A stretch of DNA of 27,093 bases from a virus. A program made the position numbers and the translations under genes. The notes under the pieces were generated by a model, which saw only the letters and a program-made list of their open reading frames with translations, did not search any database and was not told the DNA's origin. Of the stretch, positions 3,006-21,868 are shown one piece after another (position 1 is the stretch's first letter; each line of letters starts with the position of its first letter). The DNA is taken from IMG/VR virus record IMGVR_UViG_3300031963_000786, positions 1 through 27,093 of that record; one strand, given 5' to 3'.

Positions 3006-3145
3006 TAGAACTCAATCGAAATCCAAATTGGTCCGATGTCTAAATTAAATCCCCATCTGTCAATACAGATGCCAAGAGCAAACCTTCTAAAATTAAAACC
3101 AATATGGAACCAACGCTTTAATATAGTAAACTCAATCGTCTTCAT
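3005..3145 (-). CDS. Small 46-aa protein of unknown function
   Basis: A short frame from ATG 3145 to TAA 3005 gives 46 residues starting MKTIEFTILK and ending IWISIEF. It overlaps the WhiB stop by ATGA and the resolvase start by TAATG, so it exactly fills the gap and is almost surely translated. The peptide is rich in Trp, Phe and Ile with alternating hydrophobic residues (FHIGFNFRRF, then WGFNLDIGPIW), suggesting a small beta-strand protein or peripheral membrane peptide rather than a classic transmembrane helix. I do not recognise the family. Confidence 0.75.
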   Translation of the reverse strand: MKTIEFTILKRWFHIGFNFRRFALGICIDRWGFNLDIGPIWISIEF

Positions 3146-3408
3146 ACATAATCCTTTACTAGTATCTCTTGAATAATTATATTTCTACTGCGCCTAATCT
3201 TCTTGCGCTCCATTGGGGTTGTCCCGCCCCACATGCCATAAGCCTCATGTCTTATAGCCCATTCCAGACATTCATTCTTAACCACGCACTTGCCACATAT
3301 CTTGCGTGAGTATGTATATATATCAGTACCACTTCCTCCTTCTTCTGGAAAGAAGAACTCAATACCAATCTCTCTACACAACCCCCTGGTCAAGTCTGGA
3401 AATTTCAT
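3142..3408 (-). CDS. WhiB-family transcription factor
   Basis: This 88-aa protein from ATG 3408 carries the four cysteines that bind a 4Fe-4S cluster (numbered from the GTG two codons upstream: C13, C40, C43, C49) and the GMWGG turn at 60-64 that follows them, then a basic tail (MERKKIRRSRN) expected to contact DNA. WhiB proteins pair with the host sigma factor region 4 and retune transcription; phage copies such as TM4 WhiB can repress host whiB genes. AGGGA lies 7 bases before ATG 3408, which is why I prefer it over GTG 3414. It sits in the early block, consistent with an early regulator. This gene is the best evidence for an actinobacterial host. Confidence 0.92.
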   Translation of the reverse strand: MKFPDLTRGLCREIGIEFFFPEEGGSGTDIYTYSRKICGKCVVKNECLEWAIRHEAYGMWGGTTPMERKKIRRSRNIIIQEILVKDYV

Positions 3409-3802
3409 CTGCACTTCCCTTTCGTAGTAACTTCATTGCGGACAATAAGTTTTCTATAGTAACCAAGTAACCTTTACTTCGGTTCGGGGGAATCTCACAA
3501 GTAATCTCGTGACCCCAGTTCTTGACTACATATCTTACGTAATCTGTCGGAACCATAATCACGCCTTCTTCTAAGACGAATGCCCAGTAATCAGCTTGCG
3601 TTACTGATAAACCAGATGGTTCCCAAGATTGGGATTTAAGATACCAGCACTCAACCTCAATGTAAACATTGTTTGTCTTGTGCCACTTGCGGTCACGCTT
3701 TACTTCAACAGTTTTACCATTGGTCAGAAGTTGTTCAACTAGTTTCTCACCTTCACGACCATATGAGAAATCTAAATCGAAACTTGATTTAGTTACTTCC
3801 AT
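3374..3802 (-). CDS. PD-(D/E)XK nuclease-like protein
   Basis: This 142-aa protein starts with FDLDFSYGREGEKLVEQLL (8-26), then KTVEVKRDRKW (30-40) and NNVYIEVECW (44-53), followed by SWEPSGLSVTQADYWAFVL. The order of an N-terminal acidic helix, a strand with E33-x-K35 and a following acidic strand (E49, E51) fits the restriction-endonuclease fold seen in small phage nucleases. The catalytic residues are assigned by pattern only. It lies between the helicase and WhiB genes, overlapping both (10 bases with the helicase, 35 with WhiB), so it is part of the replication operon. It might process DNA ends or degrade host DNA; which of these cannot be told from the sequence. Confidence 0.7.
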   Translation of the reverse strand: MEVTKSSFDLDFSYGREGEKLVEQLLTNGKTVEVKRDRKWHKTNNVYIEVECWYLKSQSWEPSGLSVTQADYWAFVLEEGVIMVPTDYVRYVVKNWGHEITCEIPPNRSKGYLVTIENLLSAMKLLRKGSADEISRLDQGVV

Positions 3803-4626
3803 TGGCTCATCGTCCTTGCTCTAAACAATTCTGTCGATGAGTTATACAGAGTCATCTTGCTAGCTTCTGCTGCCAGTGTTATGTACTCTTCAGCATTCGG
3901 GTCAGCTTTACCGTGACGATTCTTCACGACAGCCACACGATAAACATTAGATGCGCTATCCAGCGCCACGGATAAGACGAGTTCTGGTAGGGCTGCAACC
4001 TTGCCCATCAGAGCCTTACGTGGCGCTGGGTAGTTTGGCTTAGACATCTTCTCGTTCTCCGACACATGGTGAAGAACGATGAAGGCAGTTTCATATTCAC
4101 GAGCCATATAGTGGAACGCTGACATTGCATCACGCAATGCAGTCCACTCATTGTCGCTTGATGAAGCGACGTTCATTAAGTTATCAACATACACCGCCAC
4201 AGGTGCAGCACCGTGCAGTTCAATCCACGCTTCGATTTCTTCCTCGATGTCTTGTAACGAGGGTGCTGGGTCGAAGGCAAACCGAACATGTCCTGCACCT
4301 TCAGCCAATGCATCTTCAAGAAGAACACTGGCTTCAGTATCCATGATTCTCTCAACGTCAGACACTTCTCTGTCCATAATGATTGCGCCTGCACGAGTCG
4401 CTATTGTTCTTGAATCAGAGTCCGCTGAGATATATAACGCTGGAACTTTGGAGGCGATGGCGTACCACAATGCAATCAGTGTCTTACCGCCACCTGGCTG
4501 TCCTGCAATCAAATGCAGTTGAGCCTGACGGAAGGCAACTTGACTTGCGGTAAGAGCAGGGAGCACCTCTGGTAATTGCTTACCAGCAGGTGACTCCACA
4601 CCGACTACTTGTAGTAGTGAACGCAT
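3793..4626 (-). CDS. DnaB/RecA-like replicative helicase ATPase
   Basis: This 277-aa protein is a RecA-fold ATPase. The Walker A motif is GQPGGGKT at 42-49, Walker B is VAVYVDN at 143-149, IVLHH at 183-187 fits the sensor strand, and VVKNRHGKAD at 233-242 resembles the Arg-finger/KNR element near the end of DnaB. It lacks the N-terminal domain by which DnaB binds primase, so it is closer to RepA-like or compact phage helicases. The neighbouring split primase suggests it unwinds DNA at the fork. The stop of the upstream 154-aa gene lies 2 bases before the start. An AAA_25-type recombination ATPase is the main alternative. Confidence 0.85.
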   Translation of the reverse strand: MRSLLQVVGVESPAGKQLPEVLPALTASQVAFRQAQLHLIAGQPGGGKTLIALWYAIASKVPALYISADSDSRTIATRAGAIIMDREVSDVERIMDTEASVLLEDALAEGAGHVRFAFDPAPSLQDIEEEIEAWIELHGAAPVAVYVDNLMNVASSSDNEWTALRDAMSAFHYMAREYETAFIVLHHVSENEKMSKPNYPAPRKALMGKVAALPELVLSVALDSASNVYRVAVVKNRHGKADPNAEEYITLAAEASKMTLYNSSTELFRARTMSQWK

Positions 4627-4628
4627 TG

Positions 4629-5093
4629 TTAGCCTTTAGTCCAGATTGTTTCTGCTTCAGCAACACCTGGCTTAAATGGCTTTGGTCCCTTGGCTGGGTC
4701 AAACCAACCAACGTAAGCCTTACCAGCCTTGGATACGCCCTTCTTCTTGGCGTACTTGCCACGTCCATCTGGTAGGTCTGGGGCATCTGGGTGTCCGTAT
4801 GTCCACTCATTGCCGTACTTGTCTTTGACTACCTCAATTGATTGAGGTGATGATGACACTGGCTGAGGATTCATGCCAGCATCTTGGAGTGCTTGAATAG
4901 CTTGCTCCATGTTAGGTGCGTATGCATTACCTGTTGGTCGATTAACCAACACGGCTTGCAGGCTTTGTGCTTCATTGATTGCCTCAATAGCTGCATTCAA
5001 ATTAGCTTTGAATTCGGCAACACTCATACCTCGGACGGTAAATAAGTCCTGCCCATTCAACTTGCCAGTATATGAAAACGTAGATTCAGTCAT
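4629..5093 (-). CDS. Conserved-looking replication-block protein, unknown function
   Basis: This 154-aa protein has no motif I can name. An N-terminal strand-rich start (SYTGKLNGQDLFTVRG) is followed by a helix (AEFKANLNAAIEAINEA), a Pro/Ser/Gln linker around 95-105, and a basic, aromatic C-terminal half (KYGNEWTYGHPDAP, then KYAKKKGVSKAGKAYVGWF). The final segment would suit a nucleic-acid-binding surface. It lies directly between the Cas4-like nuclease half (stop 1 base away) and the helicase (2 bases), so a helper in DNA replication or repair, perhaps single-strand binding, is a guess from context only. Confidence 0.75.
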   Translation of the reverse strand: MTESTFSYTGKLNGQDLFTVRGMSVAEFKANLNAAIEAINEAQSLQAVLVNRPTGNAYAPNMEQAIQALQDAGMNPQPVSSSPQSIEVVKDKYGNEWTYGHPDAPDLPDGRGKYAKKKGVSKAGKAYVGWFDPAKGPKPFKPGVAEAETIWTKG

Positions 5094-5762
5094 CTACTTT
5101 TTCCTTTCCTTCCCCTTTGTTGTAGGTATTTGCAGAGGGAAATCTTTTGAGCCCATTGCTGGACACTTCTCTTGGAATGAACACATCTTACAGTTTTCTC
5201 CAACCGATGGTGGGAACCAACCTTTAGACACGGAGTCATTCATTGCACCAAATACATAATCAAAGTAATCAATACTCAAATGCGATAAGTCAAACAGGTC
5301 ATCGAGCTGACCTTGTCTTGTCATAAAGAATGCGCCGAACTTTGGGCGAATGCCGTATATCTTTTCAATACCGCTGGCATACAAGCCAGCTTGAATCATA
5401 CCGAACGGTGTCCTAGCACCAGTCTTGAAGTCGACTATTACTAAGTCTTCCCCCACTTGGTAAATGACATCAATGACAAAGCGTACAGGTGTGCCTCCGA
5501 AATGCACACTTGCATCCCATTCGATGCCAGGACGACCGTCGGGCAGGGTGGCGATTTTCCACCCAGACTGAGCATACCACTTCTGGTAAGCCTCAACCTG
5601 TTTGAGTCCATCACTCTGCCAGAACGCTAGGTCTTCCCCATCTGGGCGAGCTGCGGTCTTACGACCTGCAGTCTTCCAATCAGAACTAGGAACACCTGTT
5701 TGTTCTTCGGTAACTCTAACAGATTCATTAAATACTTCAAGCCATTTTTCAGTTAAACTCAT
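5094..5762 (-). CDS. C-terminal half of a split RecB/Cas4-like nuclease
   Basis: This 222-aa protein (from the third ATG in a run of three, which has AAGG at a better distance) holds the catalytic half of a PDDEXK_1 nuclease. FVIDVIY at 95-101 supplies the metal Asp (D98), VIVDFKTG at 108-115 supplies D111-x-K113, and QAGLYA at 124-129 is the RecB QxxxY motif. The end carries C191, C194 and C200, three of the four cysteines of a Cas4/AddB-type 4Fe-4S cluster. The N-terminal part with the GxxxH helix and the first cysteine is missing here and is found in the ORF at 5945-6145. The two parts together match a full-length family member. It overlaps the zinc-ribbon gene by 14 bases. Confidence 0.85.
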   Translation of the reverse strand: MSLTEKWLEVFNESVRVTEEQTGVPSSDWKTAGRKTAARPDGEDLAFWQSDGLKQVEAYQKWYAQSGWKIATLPDGRPGIEWDASVHFGGTPVRFVIDVIYQVGEDLVIVDFKTGARTPFGMIQAGLYASGIEKIYGIRPKFGAFFMTRQGQLDDLFDLSHLSIDYFDYVFGAMNDSVSKGWFPPSVGENCKMCSFQEKCPAMGSKDFPLQIPTTKGKERKK

Positions 5763-5979
5763 CATCATCCTTCGGAGTGTAGTCTGGGTTATCTATGGGG
5801 GTAGGGGTAGTCATCGGCGACCCACAGGTCGCACAGAAGGAATCAGTAAACCACATAACAAGCTCATAGTCTTGGAAGATGGCACGGATAATCTGGATGT
5901 TGGAGCCACAGTTGATACACTCATTGCTAGGTATCCCCCGCTGGTCAATTAGATTCTTGTTGGGTTCTGTAGAACTCAT
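5749..5979 (-). CDS. Small zinc-ribbon protein between nuclease halves
   Basis: This 76-aa protein has C21-x2-C24 and C49-x2-C52, a zinc-ribbon pattern, separated by about 24 residues with a hydrophobic centre (IIRAIFQDYELVMWF). The tail is acidic and Pro-rich (PIDNPDYTPKDDDEFN). Its start lies 35 bases inside the end of the N-terminal nuclease half and its end lies inside the start of the C-terminal half, so all three are probably translated from one message. It could hold the halves together or bind DNA or RNA, but nothing in the sequence proves that. I do not recognise a named family. Confidence 0.75.
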   Translation of the reverse strand: MSSTEPNKNLIDQRGIPSNECINCGSNIQIIRAIFQDYELVMWFTDSFCATCGSPMTTPTPIDNPDYTPKDDDEFN

Positions 5980-6145
5980 GGTTCAACCATTCCAGCATCG
6001 AGTGGACTGCTGAGCCAGCAGCCAAATAAACAGCTGGTTTCTCTGGGACCATTGCGACTTTGCTGAGGTAGTATTTCTGCGGGCAGGATTGCCAAGTAGA
6101 AAGCTGACTATAGGAACGATGTGGGGGTAGTTGATTCATATGCAT
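5945..6145 (-). CDS. N-terminal half of a split RecB/Cas4-like nuclease
   Basis: This 66-aa protein from ATG 6145 (GGAG 8 bases upstream) contains SYSQLSTWQSCPQKYYL at 11-27 and AAGSAVHSMLEW at 42-53. These are the N-terminal landmarks of PDDEXK_1/Cas4 nucleases: a Ser-x-Ser-Gln/Leu start, the first Fe-S cysteine (C21) in CPQKYY, and the GxxxHxxLE helix (H48). It then stops, and the rest of the domain is encoded at 5094-5762. It is the first gene of the leftward early operon. A full-length gene broken by one sequencing error is unlikely, because a separate zinc-ribbon ORF lies between the parts. The frame is open further upstream to 6334 but that stretch looks non-coding. Confidence 0.8.
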   Translation of the reverse strand: MHMNQLPPHRSYSQLSTWQSCPQKYYLSKVAMVPEKPAVYLAAGSAVHSMLEWLNHEFYRTQQESN

Positions 6146-6466
6146 AGTGTATTCTCCAAGTCGGACAAATCGGGTCCGACACGCCGTTTGTTTTTTAACC
6201 AAGTTCGTGATAAGTTTGAGGGGTGGAGGGCGGGAAAGGCTCGCCTCAGGGCGAGCCGTGAAAAGAATAAGACATGGGATGAATTCTATCCAAGGTTCAA
6301 TGAACTCCACGGACATTACATAGCAAGGTTCCACAAGAAGATTGACTACGCAAAGATGGACCCTAACTCCAGAGCTTGTCTACCAGACAAGCGATACTGG
6401 GAGGGATGGAATGCAGGATTAGATTGGGCTCATCGAATAGTTGATGGGGATAAATCTGCAGATTAA
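6140..6466 (+). CDS. Probable plus-strand gene of unknown function
   Basis: This is the only convincing plus-strand frame. It codes for up to 108 residues (ATG 6140) or 92 (TTG 6188); neither has a clear ribosome-binding site, and the ATG start would lie inside the start of the oppositely oriented nuclease gene. The peptide looks real: charged, with two similar elements, FEGWRAGKARL and YWEGWNAGLDW, and no low complexity. No minus-strand gene covers 6146-6516. I do not recognise it. Its divergent orientation at the early/late boundary would suit a regulator, but it has no visible DNA-binding motif. It contains an 8-bp hairpin at 6238-6257. Confidence 0.5.
   Translation: MHSVFSKSDKSGPTRRLFFNQVRDKFEGWRAGKARLRASREKNKTWDEFYPRFNELHGHYIARFHKKIDYAKMDPNSRACLPDKRYWEGWNAGLDWAHRIVDGDKSAD
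6160..6180. promoter_or_regulatory. Inverted repeat upstream of the early operon
   Basis: GTCGGAC at 6160-6166 and GTCCGAC at 6174-6180 form a perfect 7-bp inverted repeat with a 7-base spacer. It lies 15 bases upstream of the first codon of the early minus-strand operon, next to its GGAG site, and within the 5' part of the plus-strand frame. It could be an operator or an mRNA hairpin near the ribosome-binding site. No clear -10/-35 pair was found beside it. Confidence 0.35.
6238..6257. other. Eight-bp GC-rich hairpin
   Basis: GGCTCGCC at 6238-6245 and GGCGAGCC at 6250-6257 pair perfectly around a 4-base loop. On the minus strand the hairpin is followed by TTTCCC, so it could be a weak second terminator for leftward transcription or shape the early leader RNA. 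It also lies inside the plus-strand frame (Lys-Ala-Arg-Leu-Arg-Ala-Ser). Confidence 0.4.
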
Positions 6467-6477
6467 AAACAAAAAGA

Positions 6478-6502
6478 AGGGGGAACCGTTATGGTTCCCC
6501 CT
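6478..6502 (-). terminator. Intrinsic terminator of the late operon
   Basis: AGGGGGAACC at 6478-6487 and GGTTCCCCCT at 6493-6502 form a perfect 10-bp stem with a 5-base loop. Read leftward, the hairpin is followed by TTCTTTTTGTTTTT, a good U-tract, so it should stop transcripts coming from the late genes just past the last one (stop at 6517). Read rightward it also closes the plus-strand gene, but with a poor U-tract. Confidence 0.88.
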
Positions 6503-6516
6503 ATCTCTTTGGCTCC

Positions 6517-6735
6517 CTACCATTCAGGCGGAGCAACTGCGAGCGCATCCAGCGTGGCTAAGTTGATGCACCCGACTGCTGGAATGGAAAGCGTATGCTG
6601 CAAACCCTTAAGCACTTCAGCCAGGGGAGCATCTAGCACATCATCTCCAGCTATATTCAGCGCCACTCGAACTTTCTCTACTAGTTCGTGACGCTCACCT
6701 GGTGATACCAGGGATATTAGTCTGTTCTGTTCCAC
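6517..6735 (-). CDS. Small protein, peptidoglycan-binding-like
   Basis: This 72-aa protein starts at a GTG that overlaps the stop of the 637-aa tail gene (TAGTG) and has no clear ribosome-binding site, so it probably relies on coupling. Residues 37-65 (APLAEVLKGLQ, then IPAVGCINLATLDAL) follow the pattern of PG_binding_1-like repeats, in which a helix with LQ is followed by a Gly turn and xATLxAL. The N-terminal part is a charged helix. It is the last late gene before the terminator. It could be a small virion or lysis-associated protein; the wall-binding role is a pattern-based suggestion. Confidence 0.65.
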   Translation of the reverse strand: MEQNRLISLVSPGERHELVEKVRVALNIAGDDVLDAPLAEVLKGLQHTLSIPAVGCINLATLDALAVAPPEW

Positions 6736-8648
6736 TATGTAATTGGAACTTCTGTATCAATAGTCTGTAGTTGAACCGTAACTATTCCACCAAATCCCGA
6801 CGCAAAAGAGGGAGGTGAAGTTTGCTCGAACTGTAAAGCGCGGATAGTACAGAGTCTTTCTTCTCCTGAAGAAAAGTCCTGGAAGAGTACCGCGCCTCCA
6901 TTTTGTTCAATACGTTCCAAATAGTTAATGCGTTCCCATGGGTTGGATACTCTTGTGACTCCATTTGAATCGCGCTCCTCTTCGAAACATAGTAACGGAA
7001 CTGTAATTGTACGAGAACGAAGTGGTGCTGGTAGCGCACGACACTGCCATTCTTCTACCATCGGACCAACTGTTGCATCACTTGTACTTCTAGTTAAAGT
7101 CAGTTGAATCTCGAAGTGGTCAGCTGGTTGAAGACCAGCAGATAACTGGAATTCTGTTGAGCCATTAAGCGGGATAGCATCAATCAATGTTGAGTTGAGC
7201 TCTTGGTCGTAAACAGAAAAACCTACTCGACCACCACCCTCGCAACGTACTGCAATAGATACTGGTTGTTTATTTTCTGCAGTACCCCAACGAATCCATC
7301 CTGATTTAATAACTCCAGAGGTGGCAAGGTTTGTTGCATGCTCGGTCCATATTCCAGACGCACCAACCATAAACTTCCTGGCTGATACCCCTAGAAAACA
7401 AACACCAATAACATTAGACGAATCTGTTTCTAAGTCTGAAGCATAGGCATAGCCATTATCTATAGGTTGACCAAGGTCAATCTTCCATAGACCTTTTTTG
7501 TTATTAATGGCAAGCGACCTGGTTGCATATACAAACCTTCCTGTAAATGCAATGTCTTGTACATCTCCAGTAATGTTTAATGGTCCGTATGTAAACGAAG
7601 CTCCATCTGTCGATTGGTTTCCTATGCGTACACCAGCTGTTGTAGCCATAACAACAAATTCGTTTAGGTATGTACGAATCTGATGTATCGTTTCACCTCG
7701 TGGTAATTCAGCAATAACAATAGGGTCATTGATTGCAGCCAACGGAGATGTATCATTTATAGTAAATGACAATACTCGTGAAATTGCACCAAGTGTATAG
7801 CCAACTATAATTGCACTATTGAGTTCGCCAACAGTATTCCATACCAGAGCTGGGTCTTTGTACGTATAACGCTCTTCAGTATTACCGATAGTTGATGGTG
7901 CTGAAGAGGGGAATCTTGATATTTCATACACCACACACTGGGTGTTGTTTTCTAATACACCAATAACTATTCTGTCTTTAACAAAACCAATAGCTTGAAC
8001 GGTCCAAGTGGTAGCAGTATTTGGTTTGTTCCAAATTTTGGTTACAACCATTGATGTACTTACTGTATAAATTGCATCCGTTCCGCCAACAATTGCGTTG
8101 TTACCATCACTTGTTAAAACATGTGCTGTTACAGATGTAGCTAACGCTGTTGATGTCGCAGCATTAGTGCTAGCGTTATAGTAATAAACATTGCCATCTT
8201 GAATATAAAAAGCTCCATCAGTTACAGTGGCTGGCTTAGCTGTGATAGCTGTTGTAGAAAACTGGGTAGTTGCTGGAAGTAAAGTAATAGAGCCAGTATT
8301 ACTAAATACATCTATGTTGTTTGATTCATAGAATCTATAAAGGTCTGATGCGTCAGCGTCATAGTAACGCTCTCCAGCACCATGATGCCAGGATGTTGCA
8401 GACCTAAGCCACCAGTTAGACAAGGAGTTTTCACCAGCAGTCGAGCCTTGGTCAATACGTTCTTTCTGGTATGTCGTAGTGATACGACTAATGCGGTTCT
8501 GGTCAGATGCAGCAGAAAGCCAAGGAGTACTACCAATTGCATAACTAGCAGCAAAGTCTTCTCGCTGGTATTTAACCAGCGCTGTAGGAATAGACTGGCT
8601 AAGAATTACAGGTAAATCACCAACAAGTTTTTTGTTGTCTGTTGCCAC
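6735..8648 (-). CDS. Large tail protein, beta-rich
   Basis: This 637-aa protein starts at GTG 8648 with AAAGGA a few bases upstream. The sequence is mostly short beta strands with repeated Gly/Asp/Thr turns (for example AIVGGTDAIYTVSTSMVV, RIVIGVLENNTQCVVYEI, EFVVMATTAGVRIG), like a beta-propeller or stacked beta domain from about 120 to 480. A C-terminal domain near 550-637 has the NPWERINYLERIEQNGG and LCTIRALQFEQ segments. No catalytic motif is seen. The position between the endolysin and the end of the late operon, and its size, suit a tail needle, hub or tubular tail protein of a short-tailed phage. The structural role is inferred from composition and context. Confidence 0.75.
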   Translation of the reverse strand: MATDNKKLVGDLPVILSQSIPTALVKYQREDFAASYAIGSTPWLSAASDQNRISRITTTYQKERIDQGSTAGENSLSNWWLRSATSWHHGAGERYYDADASDLYRFYESNNIDVFSNTGSITLLPATTQFSTTAITAKPATVTDGAFYIQDGNVYYYNASTNAATSTALATSVTAHVLTSDGNNAIVGGTDAIYTVSTSMVVTKIWNKPNTATTWTVQAIGFVKDRIVIGVLENNTQCVVYEISRFPSSAPSTIGNTEERYTYKDPALVWNTVGELNSAIIVGYTLGAISRVLSFTINDTSPLAAINDPIVIAELPRGETIHQIRTYLNEFVVMATTAGVRIGNQSTDGASFTYGPLNITGDVQDIAFTGRFVYATRSLAINNKKGLWKIDLGQPIDNGYAYASDLETDSSNVIGVCFLGVSARKFMVGASGIWTEHATNLATSGVIKSGWIRWGTAENKQPVSIAVRCEGGGRVGFSVYDQELNSTLIDAIPLNGSTEFQLSAGLQPADHFEIQLTLTRSTSDATVGPMVEEWQCRALPAPLRSRTITVPLLCFEEERDSNGVTRVSNPWERINYLERIEQNGGAVLFQDFSSGEERLCTIRALQFEQTSPPSFASGFGGIVTVQLQTIDTEVPIT

Positions 8649-9159: not shown

Positions 9160-10077
9160 TCATTTCCTTACTCTACTCATAATCAAATCGCTTTTATCTC
9201 TTAGTTCTATTCCAGTTTTTTCTATCCACTGTAGGTATAAGTCATAATCGCCTATGCCATATATACCAAGGGTTGTATCACCAGTCATAATTTTAGCTAA
9301 ACGTTCATATGATTGATAGTTAAGCAGATACCAGTTCGGGTCATCCTCCCAATGCAACTTACGTTTAGGAGTGCTTTCATTCCAAGATGCTTTATATTCG
9401 TGGAACATGAAATCAACTGGAGTATTTATTAATTTAATACCACGAGTGTAGAACCGTAATCCTAGAGATGGTTCTTCTCCATGAAAATAAAGCAATGAAT
9501 CATAAGGAACTTCTTCTATTATTTCCTTGAAACAGAATAAAGAATTACCAGACACATAATAGATTTCATCTCCATAGGGATTGAAACTAGCTTCTTGAAA
9601 TGATGGTCCAACCATCTTTTCAATTTCATCCCAAACAGGAACTATCTTTAATAAATTACTGCGGTAATGAAACTCATCTTGTTTATTGTCGTTTACTTTA
9701 TATCCTTCTGGGTAGGTAGTAAAGACAATCTTTCCGTAATGTGCATACGATGACAGGTAAGAATTTACAATTGCCCTATCCCATCCTGCTCTAAACCTAG
9801 AATGAGAATCTGTCTGAAGAAAGAATGTTCCTTTAATATCCCTGGAACCTATTTCCCTAGCCCAACAAACTCCCTTACTTTGACTCCAATGAAACTTGTA
9901 ATAAGTTAACTGTTCTTCTGGAATGAAAGATAGGTCGGGATGTTCGTCATCTTCAGCTTGAGAAACTATAGTAAAATGTAAATTATCAGGGTCTGAAGAA
10001 TTATCCCAGGCGGAACGAATGCTTGGTAATAGTTCAATATCCCTATAACTTGCTATAGAAACATTGATACCAGACAT
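9160..10077 (-). CDS. GlcNAc-type glycosyltransferase
   Basis: This 305-aa protein resembles the GlcNAc transferase family (PF11397, eukaryotic Skp1 hydroxyproline GlcNAc-transferase relatives). Visible landmarks are INVSIASYRDIELLPSI at 4-20, SKGVCWAREIGS at 67-78, FFLQTDSHSRFRAGWD at 85-100 with the metal/sugar-nucleotide D90-x-H92 motif, and YYVSGNSLFCFKEI plus FHGEEPSLGLRFYTRG further on. There is no membrane segment, so it acts in the cytoplasm on a phage or host acceptor. It lies between the holins and endolysin, close to the glycine-rich adhesins and tail fibre, which makes decoration of those Ser/Thr-rich proteins plausible. The acceptor and sugar are inferred. Confidence 0.85.
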   Translation of the reverse strand: MSGINVSIASYRDIELLPSIRSAWDNSSDPDNLHFTIVSQAEDDEHPDLSFIPEEQLTYYKFHWSQSKGVCWAREIGSRDIKGTFFLQTDSHSRFRAGWDRAIVNSYLSSYAHYGKIVFTTYPEGYKVNDNKQDEFHYRSNLLKIVPVWDEIEKMVGPSFQEASFNPYGDEIYYVSGNSLFCFKEIIEEVPYDSLLYFHGEEPSLGLRFYTRGIKLINTPVDFMFHEYKASWNESTPKRKLHWEDDPNWYLLNYQSYERLAKIMTGDTTLGIYGIGDYDLYLQWIEKTGIELRDKSDLIMSRVRK

Positions 10078-18926: not shown

Positions 18927-20606
18927 TTAAACGTCAGGTGTTCTTAAACGAGAACCTAACGATGCGCGGTCAATTGCTCCACGTTGCTGGAACTTGGCGC
19001 GTTCTTTAGAGGCAAGCTTCTTAGTCTTGATACCAACTTCAGTACCACCTGCAAGACCAAGTGCTTCACGAGTTAAGTCTTCTGTACCAGCGGTTTCGCC
19101 ATACAGTGACATTAAGCGTCGGTAATCATCTTGTTCGCGGGCTGCACCTTGGAAGGCACGTTCGGCAGCATCTGCCTTACCTGCCTTGGTAATCTCTTCA
19201 GCAAAGGCTCTAGAGATACCTGTATCAAATCCTGCACGAGCAGCAGCGCCACCAACTTCAGCAGAGGTATACATCAATTTAGCTTGCTCTGTTGAATACT
19301 GGTAACGAGAGTTGATAGCATCAAATGCCTTCTCGTTATCTAGAAGATAGGCGACCAAGTCGCCAGATGATAAGCCATAGTAATCTTTAAGTGATTTAAC
19401 AATTGCTTGGTCTGCCTTTTGTAGCGCATTCTGTGCAATGTTTACACGTGCTGTAAATTCACCAACGCTGATTGAGTTGGCAATAAGGTTACCTAAATCT
19501 TCTGGTTGGTCGTAGAACATTTCTGGTAATCCTGCTTCTTGCATGATTTCTCTATAGCCATCTTCGGCTGCAATGTATTCTGCAGGAGCTAGAAGTCTGT
19601 CACCAGGGCGACCCTTACCATCTGCTATACGTTTACGAATAGCCTCGTTAGCAGCAAACCGTGTCTTGTATGCATCACTGGTATAGATACTGTTAAGAAC
19701 CTGTGCATCGGTAGGCATAATGTTTTCTTCATAGACCTTGTCTATGGTGTCAACTAGTGACTTAATAAATGCATCACCAAGTCCTGTGTTCTCAAACATC
19801 TTCATGACTGAGTCACGAGCACCAAAGTCCTTGTAAGATTCGATTAACTTACCAAGAGAACCATCGGACATCTGCTCGTATACTTCAACAACGCCACCAG
19901 TTTTACGAACCGTACGTGTTCCAGTAACCTTTGGCTTAGCAGCATCGGCTGCAGCAGCAGCCTGCATAGCTGCAATCTGTGCAGTTAGCGCAGCAATCTG
20001 GTCAAGAATTGCACCTGTTGCTGCTGCATCAGGACCTTTACCACCAGCACCAGTATTAGGGTCGCCACCAAAAGATGGACTAGAAGTTGGTGTGGGTGAT
20101 GGAGTAGGTGTCGGGGTAGGTGTTGGGGTAGGACTAGGTGTAGGTGAGGGCGTTGGGCTAGGTGAAGGACTTGGGGTAGGACTTGGAGTAGGTGAAGGAC
20201 TAGGAGTAGGTGAAGGACTAGGAGTAGGTGAAGGACTAGGAGTTGGCGAAGCAGTTGGTTTCGGTGAAGCAGTTGGTGTTGGTGAAGGGGTTACTGTTTG
20301 ATTTTGATATCCAACATTTACTGTAGTTCCAGACCAAATCATGTTTCCACCCTGATACTTAGGGTTAGATTCAAACTTTGGATTTAGCTCTAAAATTTCC
20401 GCAACTGTTGTATTGTTTCTTGCAGCAATAGATGAAAGAGTGTCACCAGGTTTAACAGTTACCTTAACTGGAACTTGAGTTGTTGTTGCTTGAGAAGCAG
20501 CATTAGCAGCTTGCATTTGAGAAATACGTGCTCGCTCTGCAGCGTCGGCTGCAGCATCATTTCGTACAGCAATTACTGAATCGTAAAAATCGTCATATGC
20601 TCCCAT
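18927..20606 (-). CDS. LysM virion protein with long Pro/Thr/Ser linker
   Basis: This 559-aa protein has a helical start (1-45), a LysM domain at about 48-99 ([26 protein letters not shown], then GTTVNVG), and an almost pure Pro-Ser/Pro-Thr linker at about 106-188. A Gly-rich spacer and an Ala-rich helix ([21 protein letters not shown]) lead to a large helical C-terminal region. LysM binds GlcNAc-containing glycans, here most likely peptidoglycan. The position upstream of scaffold and capsid suggests an internal or injected virion protein. Its LysM is a close relative of the one in the 419-aa neighbour, so they probably arose by duplication. Confidence 0.82.
20185..20238. repeat. Three exact 18-bp tandem repeats in the linker
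   Basis: The unit GGAGTAGGTGAAGGACTA (plus strand) occurs three times without change at 20185-20202, 20203-20220 and 20221-20238. It is flanked by degenerate copies from about 20081 to 20296. On the coding strand each unit encodes six residues of the Pro-Ser/Pro-Thr linker. Such repeats can change copy number by slippage, so linker length may vary between isolates. Confidence 0.9.
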
Positions 20607-20608
20607 GT

Positions 20609-21868
20609 TTACCCCAGGAATCCGAAGTCTTTAAGAATACGTGAAGCAATAGAAGTCTTCTCCTCTTTTGCTGTTTGGGTATCGTCCCACTTGGCGCTAC
20701 GTCGTCCAAGTTTCTTTGTGTCATACAAGTTCATTGTGGTGAAGTTGCCGTCTTTATCTTGCATGTTTATAGCTCTTTGTACATAATCATCATTAAGGTC
20801 AACTTGGTCAATATCCATTTCCCAAGTATCTGCAAGGGCTTTAAGCCATGGGTCTGCAGCTTCACGAAGAGTCTGACCTTGGTCAATAAATCTAGCCAAA
20901 CCAGGAGCAAATGATTTTGCTCTAGCCTGTAGGTCGTTATCGACATCTTCTGGGTTAAGGGTTCCAGCAACTAGACCTTTCATGCTTGCCTCAAACCACT
21001 TATCAAAGCTTGCATTAGATGTTGTTTGTTGGAAACCATAATCACGAGCCATGCTATACAACTTGCCAGCCATAGTTTCTAGCTTTCCAGCTAGACCAGT
21101 GTAAACAACACGACCATCAATAGAGTTTGTCTTAACAAACTTGATTGAGTCAGCCATCAATTTGTTTAGATAGTCTTGGTCAAATCTAACAACTTTACCA
21201 TCTTTGATGATGGCTTGCTTCATCATGTTGTTAGCGTATTCAATTGCTTCAGAAGCACTAATAGGTAAACCCATAGAAGCAAATTGTTTTACAATATTGC
21301 TTGCATTCTTTTGTAGGTCTGCAGCAAACTGACCTGGGTTGGTTGCTTTAGCAAAATCAAATTGGCGTTGAGTATCTGTCTGGTCACGATACCAAGATGT
21401 ACCCTTGACAATAGCCTCTTGTAGCGCTGGGTCAGTAATCATTGGACCGCCATCAGCACCAAGAATTTTGTTAAGAGCAGCCAATAAACTTGGGTCGTTA
21501 TTAATAACTGCAGCAGTAATACCATACATCTTTTGAAGCATAGCCATTGACAATTTATCGGCTGCCATGGGTACAGCAGTAGGCGAGTTCTGCGATAAAC
21601 CAAGATTATCTGTAAAAGGATTTGGAGATGATGTAGGTGTTGGGGTCGGTGAAAAAGCTGGTGTTGGAGTTGGGGTTGGGGTTAAAGCAGAACCAGAACC
21701 AGGTATTGTTACCTTAGTTCCTGCAAATATTGTATTACCGTTATTGTATTTAGGGTTTGTTGTAAGTACAGGGTTGGCTTTAAGGATTGCAGAAACCGTA
21801 GTTCCATTTGCTTTAGCAATAGAGCTAAGTGTTTGACCAGACCTAACTGTTACTTTTGTATCAGCCAT
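20609..21868 (-). CDS. Second LysM virion protein with PT linker
   Basis: This 419-aa protein opens directly with LysM (about 5-56; [34 protein letters not shown]), followed by a short Pro-Thr linker (about 62-85) and a helical region to the end with no catalytic motif that I can name. The LysM shares NPKY, GN, I(F/W) and GTxV positions with that of the 559-aa protein. It ends [13 protein letters not shown], 2 bases before the next start. It is most likely a virion protein that contacts the cell wall during DNA entry. Confidence 0.8.

Follow-up and report, generated by a model that had tools for sequence, protein, structure and literature searches.

A Cas4-like phage exonuclease that appears to be naturally split into two conserved genes

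Cas4 nucleases of the Fe-S type are described, in the parts of PMC5704561 and PMC4625639 that deal with them, as holding their cluster with four conserved cysteines. The relevant section of the former places the Cas4-like pfam12705 proteins of Mycobacterium phages and of some Propionibacterium and Bacillus phages in a large clade, and the word "split" is absent from its main text. A viral Cas4 divided between two genes has been described in Thermoproteus tenax virus 1 (TTV1), where, according to the corresponding part of PMC4625639, the protein is split into TP1 and gp7 and catalytic residues are lost. An excerpt of PMC5050341 also reports an intein in the RecB-like nuclease of C1 mycobacteriophages. 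Among the open-licence papers listed, judged by titles and the opening lines of abstracts, we came across no further split viral Cas4 and no split Cas4-like phage nuclease with intact motifs. Here we describe a putative exonuclease of this kind, conserved and naturally split into two genes.

The window, by which we mean the whole stretch of DNA analysed, is a virus record of 27,093 bases with a GC content of 0.444. It codes for the N-terminal half of the nuclease (N), a small zinc-ribbon-like protein (Z) and the C-terminal half (C), together with two further genes that follow them.

5945..6139, minus strand: N half, 64 aa (66 aa from an alternative ATG at 6145)
6083-6085, minus strand: codon of C19 of N, the first Fe-S cysteine
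6002-6004 and 5990-5992, minus strand: codons of H46 and E50 in the N helix
5749..5979, minus strand: Z, 76 aa, zinc-ribbon-like, with CxxC twice (C21, C24, C49, C52)
5094..5768, minus strand: C half, 224 aa, with D100, D113xK115, Q126xxxY130 and the Fe-S cysteines C193, C196 and C202
4629..5093, minus strand: ORF of 154 aa whose ATG abuts the C stop, forming an operon-like run with C
3793..4626, minus strand: DnaB-like replicative helicase, 277 aa (phrog_243, E=5.7e-74)

The reading frames overlap by 35 nt between N and Z and by 20 nt between Z and C, with Z in frame +1 relative to N and C in frame +1 relative to Z. The ORF translations agree with the motifs named in the initial annotation, which had placed CPQKYY and a GxxxHxxLE helix (here GSAVHSMLE) in N, and D...DxK (here ID..DFKTG), QxxxY and the last three cysteines (C-x2-C-x5-C) in C; they also agree with its 76-aa C-x2-C/C-x2-C protein between the halves, overlapping both. 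The ends that it gave at 5094 for C and 5945 for N stand as well. Its upstream boundary of C, at 5762, does not, as this ORF starts at 5768 with three consecutive ATGs, while N, drawn from 6145, could begin there or at 6139, relatives keeping a start at the latter position or just upstream of it. The 154-aa ORF gave no significant family match against Pfam and PHROG profiles. Elsewhere in the window, a WhiB-like transcription factor (3142-3414, minus strand; phrog_472, E=1.3e-19) is in keeping with an actinobacterial host. Other genes on the same strand code for an HslV-family peptidase-like protein (1370-1903; phrog_1040, E=2.6e-26), a glycosyltransferase (9160-10077) and an adjacent pair (18927-21868), each member of which carries a transglycosylase/endolysin-like domain at or near its N-terminus and a different remainder (phrog_8424 and phrog_6654).

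Both halves match the same phage exonuclease family, phrog_1870, N at profile positions 11-68 of 313 and C at positions 73-299 (E=1.4e-60), and jointly they cover it almost end to end, with a gap of four positions between them. An intact relative (locus L370) covers positions 11-301, and N and C are colinear with the one-gene homologues in the alignment. N also matches positions 81-140 of 501 in phrog_69. With the Pfam family PDDEXK_1 (PF12705), N alone scored 31.2 bits (profile 3-50 of 247) and C alone 26.1 bits (profile 98-247 of 247), each above the gathering cut-off of 22, so the resemblance goes beyond chance, and the near-complete profile cover suggests an enzyme with little or nothing missing, divided at one loop. 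The four cysteines that characterize the Fe-S type of Cas4 are all present, but they are spread over two chains, one in N and three in C. Against the cas4 equivalog model TIGR00372 of NCBIfam, which has a cut-off of 65 bits, C reached 29.6 bits and N 16.9 bits; judged from its sequence, we regard the predicted nuclease as Cas4-like and not as Cas4 proper. The C sequence gave five weak matches in the PDB, the best being 9iab (E=0.027). A blastn search of phage records with window positions 4500-7000 gave no match, and none of the 52 pattern matches in a scan of genome contigs was a relative.

The same three-gene order, which the initial annotation had proposed to look for in related phages, recurs widely. 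Scans of viral contigs seeded with C, N and Z yielded 213 loci, including the window's own record (L001) and repeat fetches; N-Z-C was found in 210 of them among the matches listed, each scan covering the best 80 at most of 136 to 333 relatives, and architecture counts of this kind are not frequencies in nature. The other three loci (L037, L050 and L075) start inside the region at a contig end. The 210 loci collapse to 103 distinct regions, in all of which the open frames overlap and step by +1 and +1. Every region offers an ATG where C begins, and 98 offer one for N, at the 6139 position or just upstream; the five regions with no N start include four that are cut at the start of the locus. 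A scan seeded with the DnaB gene, which is a less biased sample, added 65 new loci (80 listed): N, Z and C are all present in 51, and the other 14 begin at a contig end within or downstream of the region. Among the matches listed, a single frame is restored in none of the 213 loci, which bears out the initial view that the arrangement is not a simple frameshift error.

Selection was analysed in 93 of the 103 regions; the ten dropped were four with C and four with N cut by the end of the contig or locus, one with a premature stop in C (L030) and one without an N start. For N, with the final 11 codons left out, the median dN/dS was 0.024, from 920 of 2485 pairs whose dS was in the usable range; the corresponding values were 0.103 for Z, from 734 of 2701 pairs, and 0.112 for C, from 2386 of 3916 pairs. 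N, Z and C are thus all under purifying selection.

The split also occurs in other architectures. Two wider scans were seeded with alignments, one led by the intact gene of Cutibacterium phage PHL010M04 and the other by L384, the latter covering the best 80 of 333 relatives. Classification of 487 loci by profiles gave, among the matches listed, 383 split with Z between the halves, 16 split without Z and 62 intact, the rest being 21 without a found N and five without a found C. Length filtering left 125 distinct N-Z-C regions, 13 in which N and C adjoin, 10 whose Z and C are farther apart, and 56 intact genes. The cut lies in the same loop in every aligned case, including the adjoining pairs (L371-L374 and L421-L429), which have no insert and whose halves overlap by 4 nt (ATGA or GTGA). 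An extra ORF lies between Z and C in L381 and L384, and two ORFs lie there in L410. Judged from the distances and not from a reading ORF by ORF, the spacing in L383, L393, L408, L409 and L431-L439 is identical or close to that in these three. The small ORFs at the junction of L381, L384 and L410 code for 62 to 78 aa and have AFEKAFVE in common, with one further ORF in L410; for those of L384 and L410, neither Pfam nor PHROG gave a matching family. In L384, about 110 nt that separate Z from the extra ORF have no assignment. Overall, the split site gives the impression of a place where genes are gained.

Two cultured phages carry the split as well. In both E7 and F5, separate ORFs with a 17-nt overlap code for N, of 61 aa counted from its ATG, and for C, of 202 aa; no Z lies between the halves, and none was found in the fetched stretch of E7. 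Their genomes, OX376640 (LanE43-AprE7) and OX376641 (LanE43-AprF5), are both filed as "Caudovirales sp. ct2KA10" and are unannotated in the phage records. The record descriptions AprE7 and AprF5 match the names of E7 and F5 in the portion of PMC10202952 that describes them as phages of "Ca. Planktophila" strain LanE-43, isolated from the Rimov reservoir. Profile matches, colinear alignment, recurrence, selection and these cultured phages together give good support to the initial proposal of one Cas4/RecB-like nuclease encoded over two genes.

The intervening gene is harder to place. CxxC occurs twice in all 22 aligned Z proteins, and four cysteines are kept in nine of nine diverse ones, with the first pair as CxC in L384 and L410 and as C-x4-C in L464. 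Zinc-ribbon families of Pfam were matched only below their cut-offs, the AlphaFold model of Z is poor (pLDDT 48.2), tblastn of Z in phage records gave nothing at E 0.01, and the nine diverse sequences, once aligned, were too divergent for use in a search. Z could be a third subunit of the nuclease, in an N-Z-C heterotrimer with the zinc ribbon bridging the halves or touching DNA. The Z-seeded scan is in favour of this, as Z lies between N and C in 71 of its 75 new loci (80 listed) and two more are cut by a contig end, and so is the strong purifying selection on Z. Against it, the last two loci of that scan carry a Z relative alone beside replication genes: in L555 it is flanked by genes for a DnaG-type zinc-finger/Toprim protein and an SNF2-type helicase, and a DnaB-like helicase is encoded upstream; in L503 similar ORFs lie upstream, as judged by eye. 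Moreover, no Z was found within the fetched stretches of the 62 intact loci or of the 16 split loci that lack it, among the matches listed, and other small ORFs also occupy the junction. We therefore consider this reading unlikely. The zinc-ribbon gene between the halves, around which the split had initially been described, does recur in the clade of the window, but it does not define the split: it was found in 0 of 16 loci of two split lineages, as fetched, and stands alone elsewhere, so Z is not needed for the split. An elaboration in which N and C share the cluster, N acts as the limiting switch and Z clamps the halves or feeds DNA in is likewise improbable; if true, phages would be using the junction to add subunits to an enzyme already split. 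A role of Z in the two-chain enzyme is doubtful; most likely Z is a zinc-ribbon protein in its own right, belonging to the replication module, and its gene has entered the junction.

The two halves could also be a decayed gene, with N as a remnant and C inactive or acting alone, a fate for which the split Cas4 of TTV1 is a precedent in the part of PMC4625639 devoted to it. Some defects of this sort were seen, each in a single contig where error and real variant are indistinguishable: the motif-III Asp is changed to Val in the C half of L070, the start of N is lost in L023 and C has a premature stop in L030. Nevertheless, N is the most constrained of the three genes, the split has been retained over deep divergences and hardly any distinct segment has lost its motifs. 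By our own pattern expressions and among the matches listed, the distinct C segments of split loci keep DxKT in 108 of 109 cases, QxxxY in 109 of 109 and C-x2/3-C-x5-C in 109 of 109 (the spacing being shifted to C-x3-C in L421 and L423), while the distinct N segments keep the first cysteine in 45 of 46 and a GxAxH-like motif in 46 of 46. The halves are thus not decayed at their catalytic residues, and decay appears very unlikely. In 16 records of the window clade, of 40.6-42.7 kb and with no completeness given for them, neither a second copy of this nuclease nor a further PDDEXK_1 match at E 0.1 was present; G003 has an additional short match, which is an end fragment of N.

Programmed frameshifting or ribosome bypassing could in principle join the parts into a single polypeptide with Z as an inserted domain. 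The constant steps of +1 and +1 in the 103 distinct regions of the window clade would fit this, as would the last codon of N, which is AAT or GAT in that clade. The steps differ elsewhere, however, being (2,1) in L464 and L465 and (1,2) in L460, L474 and L476, and without an insert the step is -1 in 15 of 16 loci and +1 in E7. As the frame relations vary by lineage, there is no common frameshift site joining the parts. The last codon of Z also varies widely, the stop of N can be TGA, TAA or TAG, and C has its own ATG in all 103 regions, all of which makes a single polypeptide highly improbable. Nothing in this locus speaks for a sequencing or assembly error, an intron or an intein, and these can practically be dismissed, given the many distinct contig sequences and two cultured phage genomes, the adjoining halves without any insert, a Z with its own selection and stand-alone relatives, and a sole Rfam match at E<=1 in window positions 4500-6800 that scored 21 bits against a gathering score of 80.

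The position of the cut can be seen on a fold model of the intact relative L370 (mean pLDDT 91.7, pTM 0.86), built from an alignment (A6) that combines nine intact relatives with nine N and twelve C halves. In this alignment, N ends just past the helix at residues 38-57 and the aligned part of C begins at the helix at 68-81, which puts the cut in the loop that connects them. Among solved structures, the fold closest to this model is chain A of AdnAB (Z-score 16.1, rmsd 3.6, 223 aligned residues), followed by ACE1 (14.8), chain B of AddAB (14.5), the Cas4 of a type I-C complex and Dna2 (12.0 each) and EXO5 (11.4). The best viral fold match is the 247-aa exonuclease of Propionibacterium phage Procrass1; this phage encodes a shorter exonuclease in a single gene, and none of its other genes is annotated as an exonuclease.

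The history of the split was followed in trees of N and C. Distances among N halves and among C halves correlate closely (r=0.96, 17 representatives), a correlation that shared ancestry alone can yield. The 30-row tree of N and C has two changes between split and intact forms, and holding all split rows together gave a borderline p-AU of 0.051. Adding five intact rows, of which three sit on long branches, raises the changes to three and makes a single split clade less favoured (p-AU 0.023). The N-Z-C rows form one side of a branch, with support of 100/97 in the 30-row tree and 86/97 in the extended one. Intact genes of the Cutibacterium type group with the split loci L371 and L372 (97/93 and 89/77, respectively) and, in the 30-row tree, are placed apart from the intact genes of the Mycobacterium type. 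This placement beside split forms suggests that fused and split forms may replace each other, and that fission or fusion at this loop may have happened more than once. Either the gene was split repeatedly at the same loop or it was split early and then re-fused; we claim neither a single nor a multiple origin.

The reading that we prefer, and consider probable, is that N and C are separately translated chains that would form one Fe-S PD-(D/E)XK exonuclease, with Z as a separate protein. Such an enzyme would have the Cas4/AddB/AdnA fold and may serve the replication or recombination of phage DNA. The cut in its gene falls in the loop joining the GxAxH helix to the one after it, and motif I (the His and Glu of N) would adjoin the D..DxK and QxxxY motifs of C. 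By homology, the [Fe-S] cluster would take Cys1 from N and Cys2-4 from C and so could act as a staple between the two chains. The overlapping ends probably couple the translation of N and C with that of the genes lying between them, and junction genes such as Z presumably arrived after the split.

If N and C do assemble, the metal cluster and the active site would be complete only when the two chains meet, and phages would have preserved a two-chain arrangement over deep divergences. The locus would then illustrate how a gene can divide and other genes come to occupy the gap, and it could offer a design template in the form of a natural split nuclease whose cut site is known. The cultured phages E7 and F5 make the two-chain idea testable. 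A half of 60-70 aa could also be overlooked by annotators, who would then miss that the enzyme is complete.

Among known systems, the one-gene Cas4-like (pfam12705-type) exonucleases of Mycobacterium, Rhodococcus, Gordonia and Cutibacterium phages are alike in motifs, in colinearity and in having a DnaB-like helicase downstream, which we found in five such phages with varying small genes between. Their exonuclease is one polypeptide, whereas here there are two, cut after the GxAxH helix and often with genes between. The Fe-S nuclease domains of AdnAB, AddAB, Dna2 and EXO5 are the nearest folds, but they were solved as single chains through the nuclease domain, and we know of no natural split at the same loop in any of them. 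TTV1 resembles the present case, as described in part of PMC4625639: its Cas4 relative is likewise encoded by two genes, with TP1 carrying Cys1 and gp7 carrying three cysteines. As far as the sequences tell, the locus described here differs from it in cut site, retained motifs and breadth: in TTV1 (PMC4625639, same part), the cut falls within QhxxY and TP1 is a nucleocapsid protein, whereas in the phages analysed here the cut lies upstream, the motifs are kept and the split is more widely spread.
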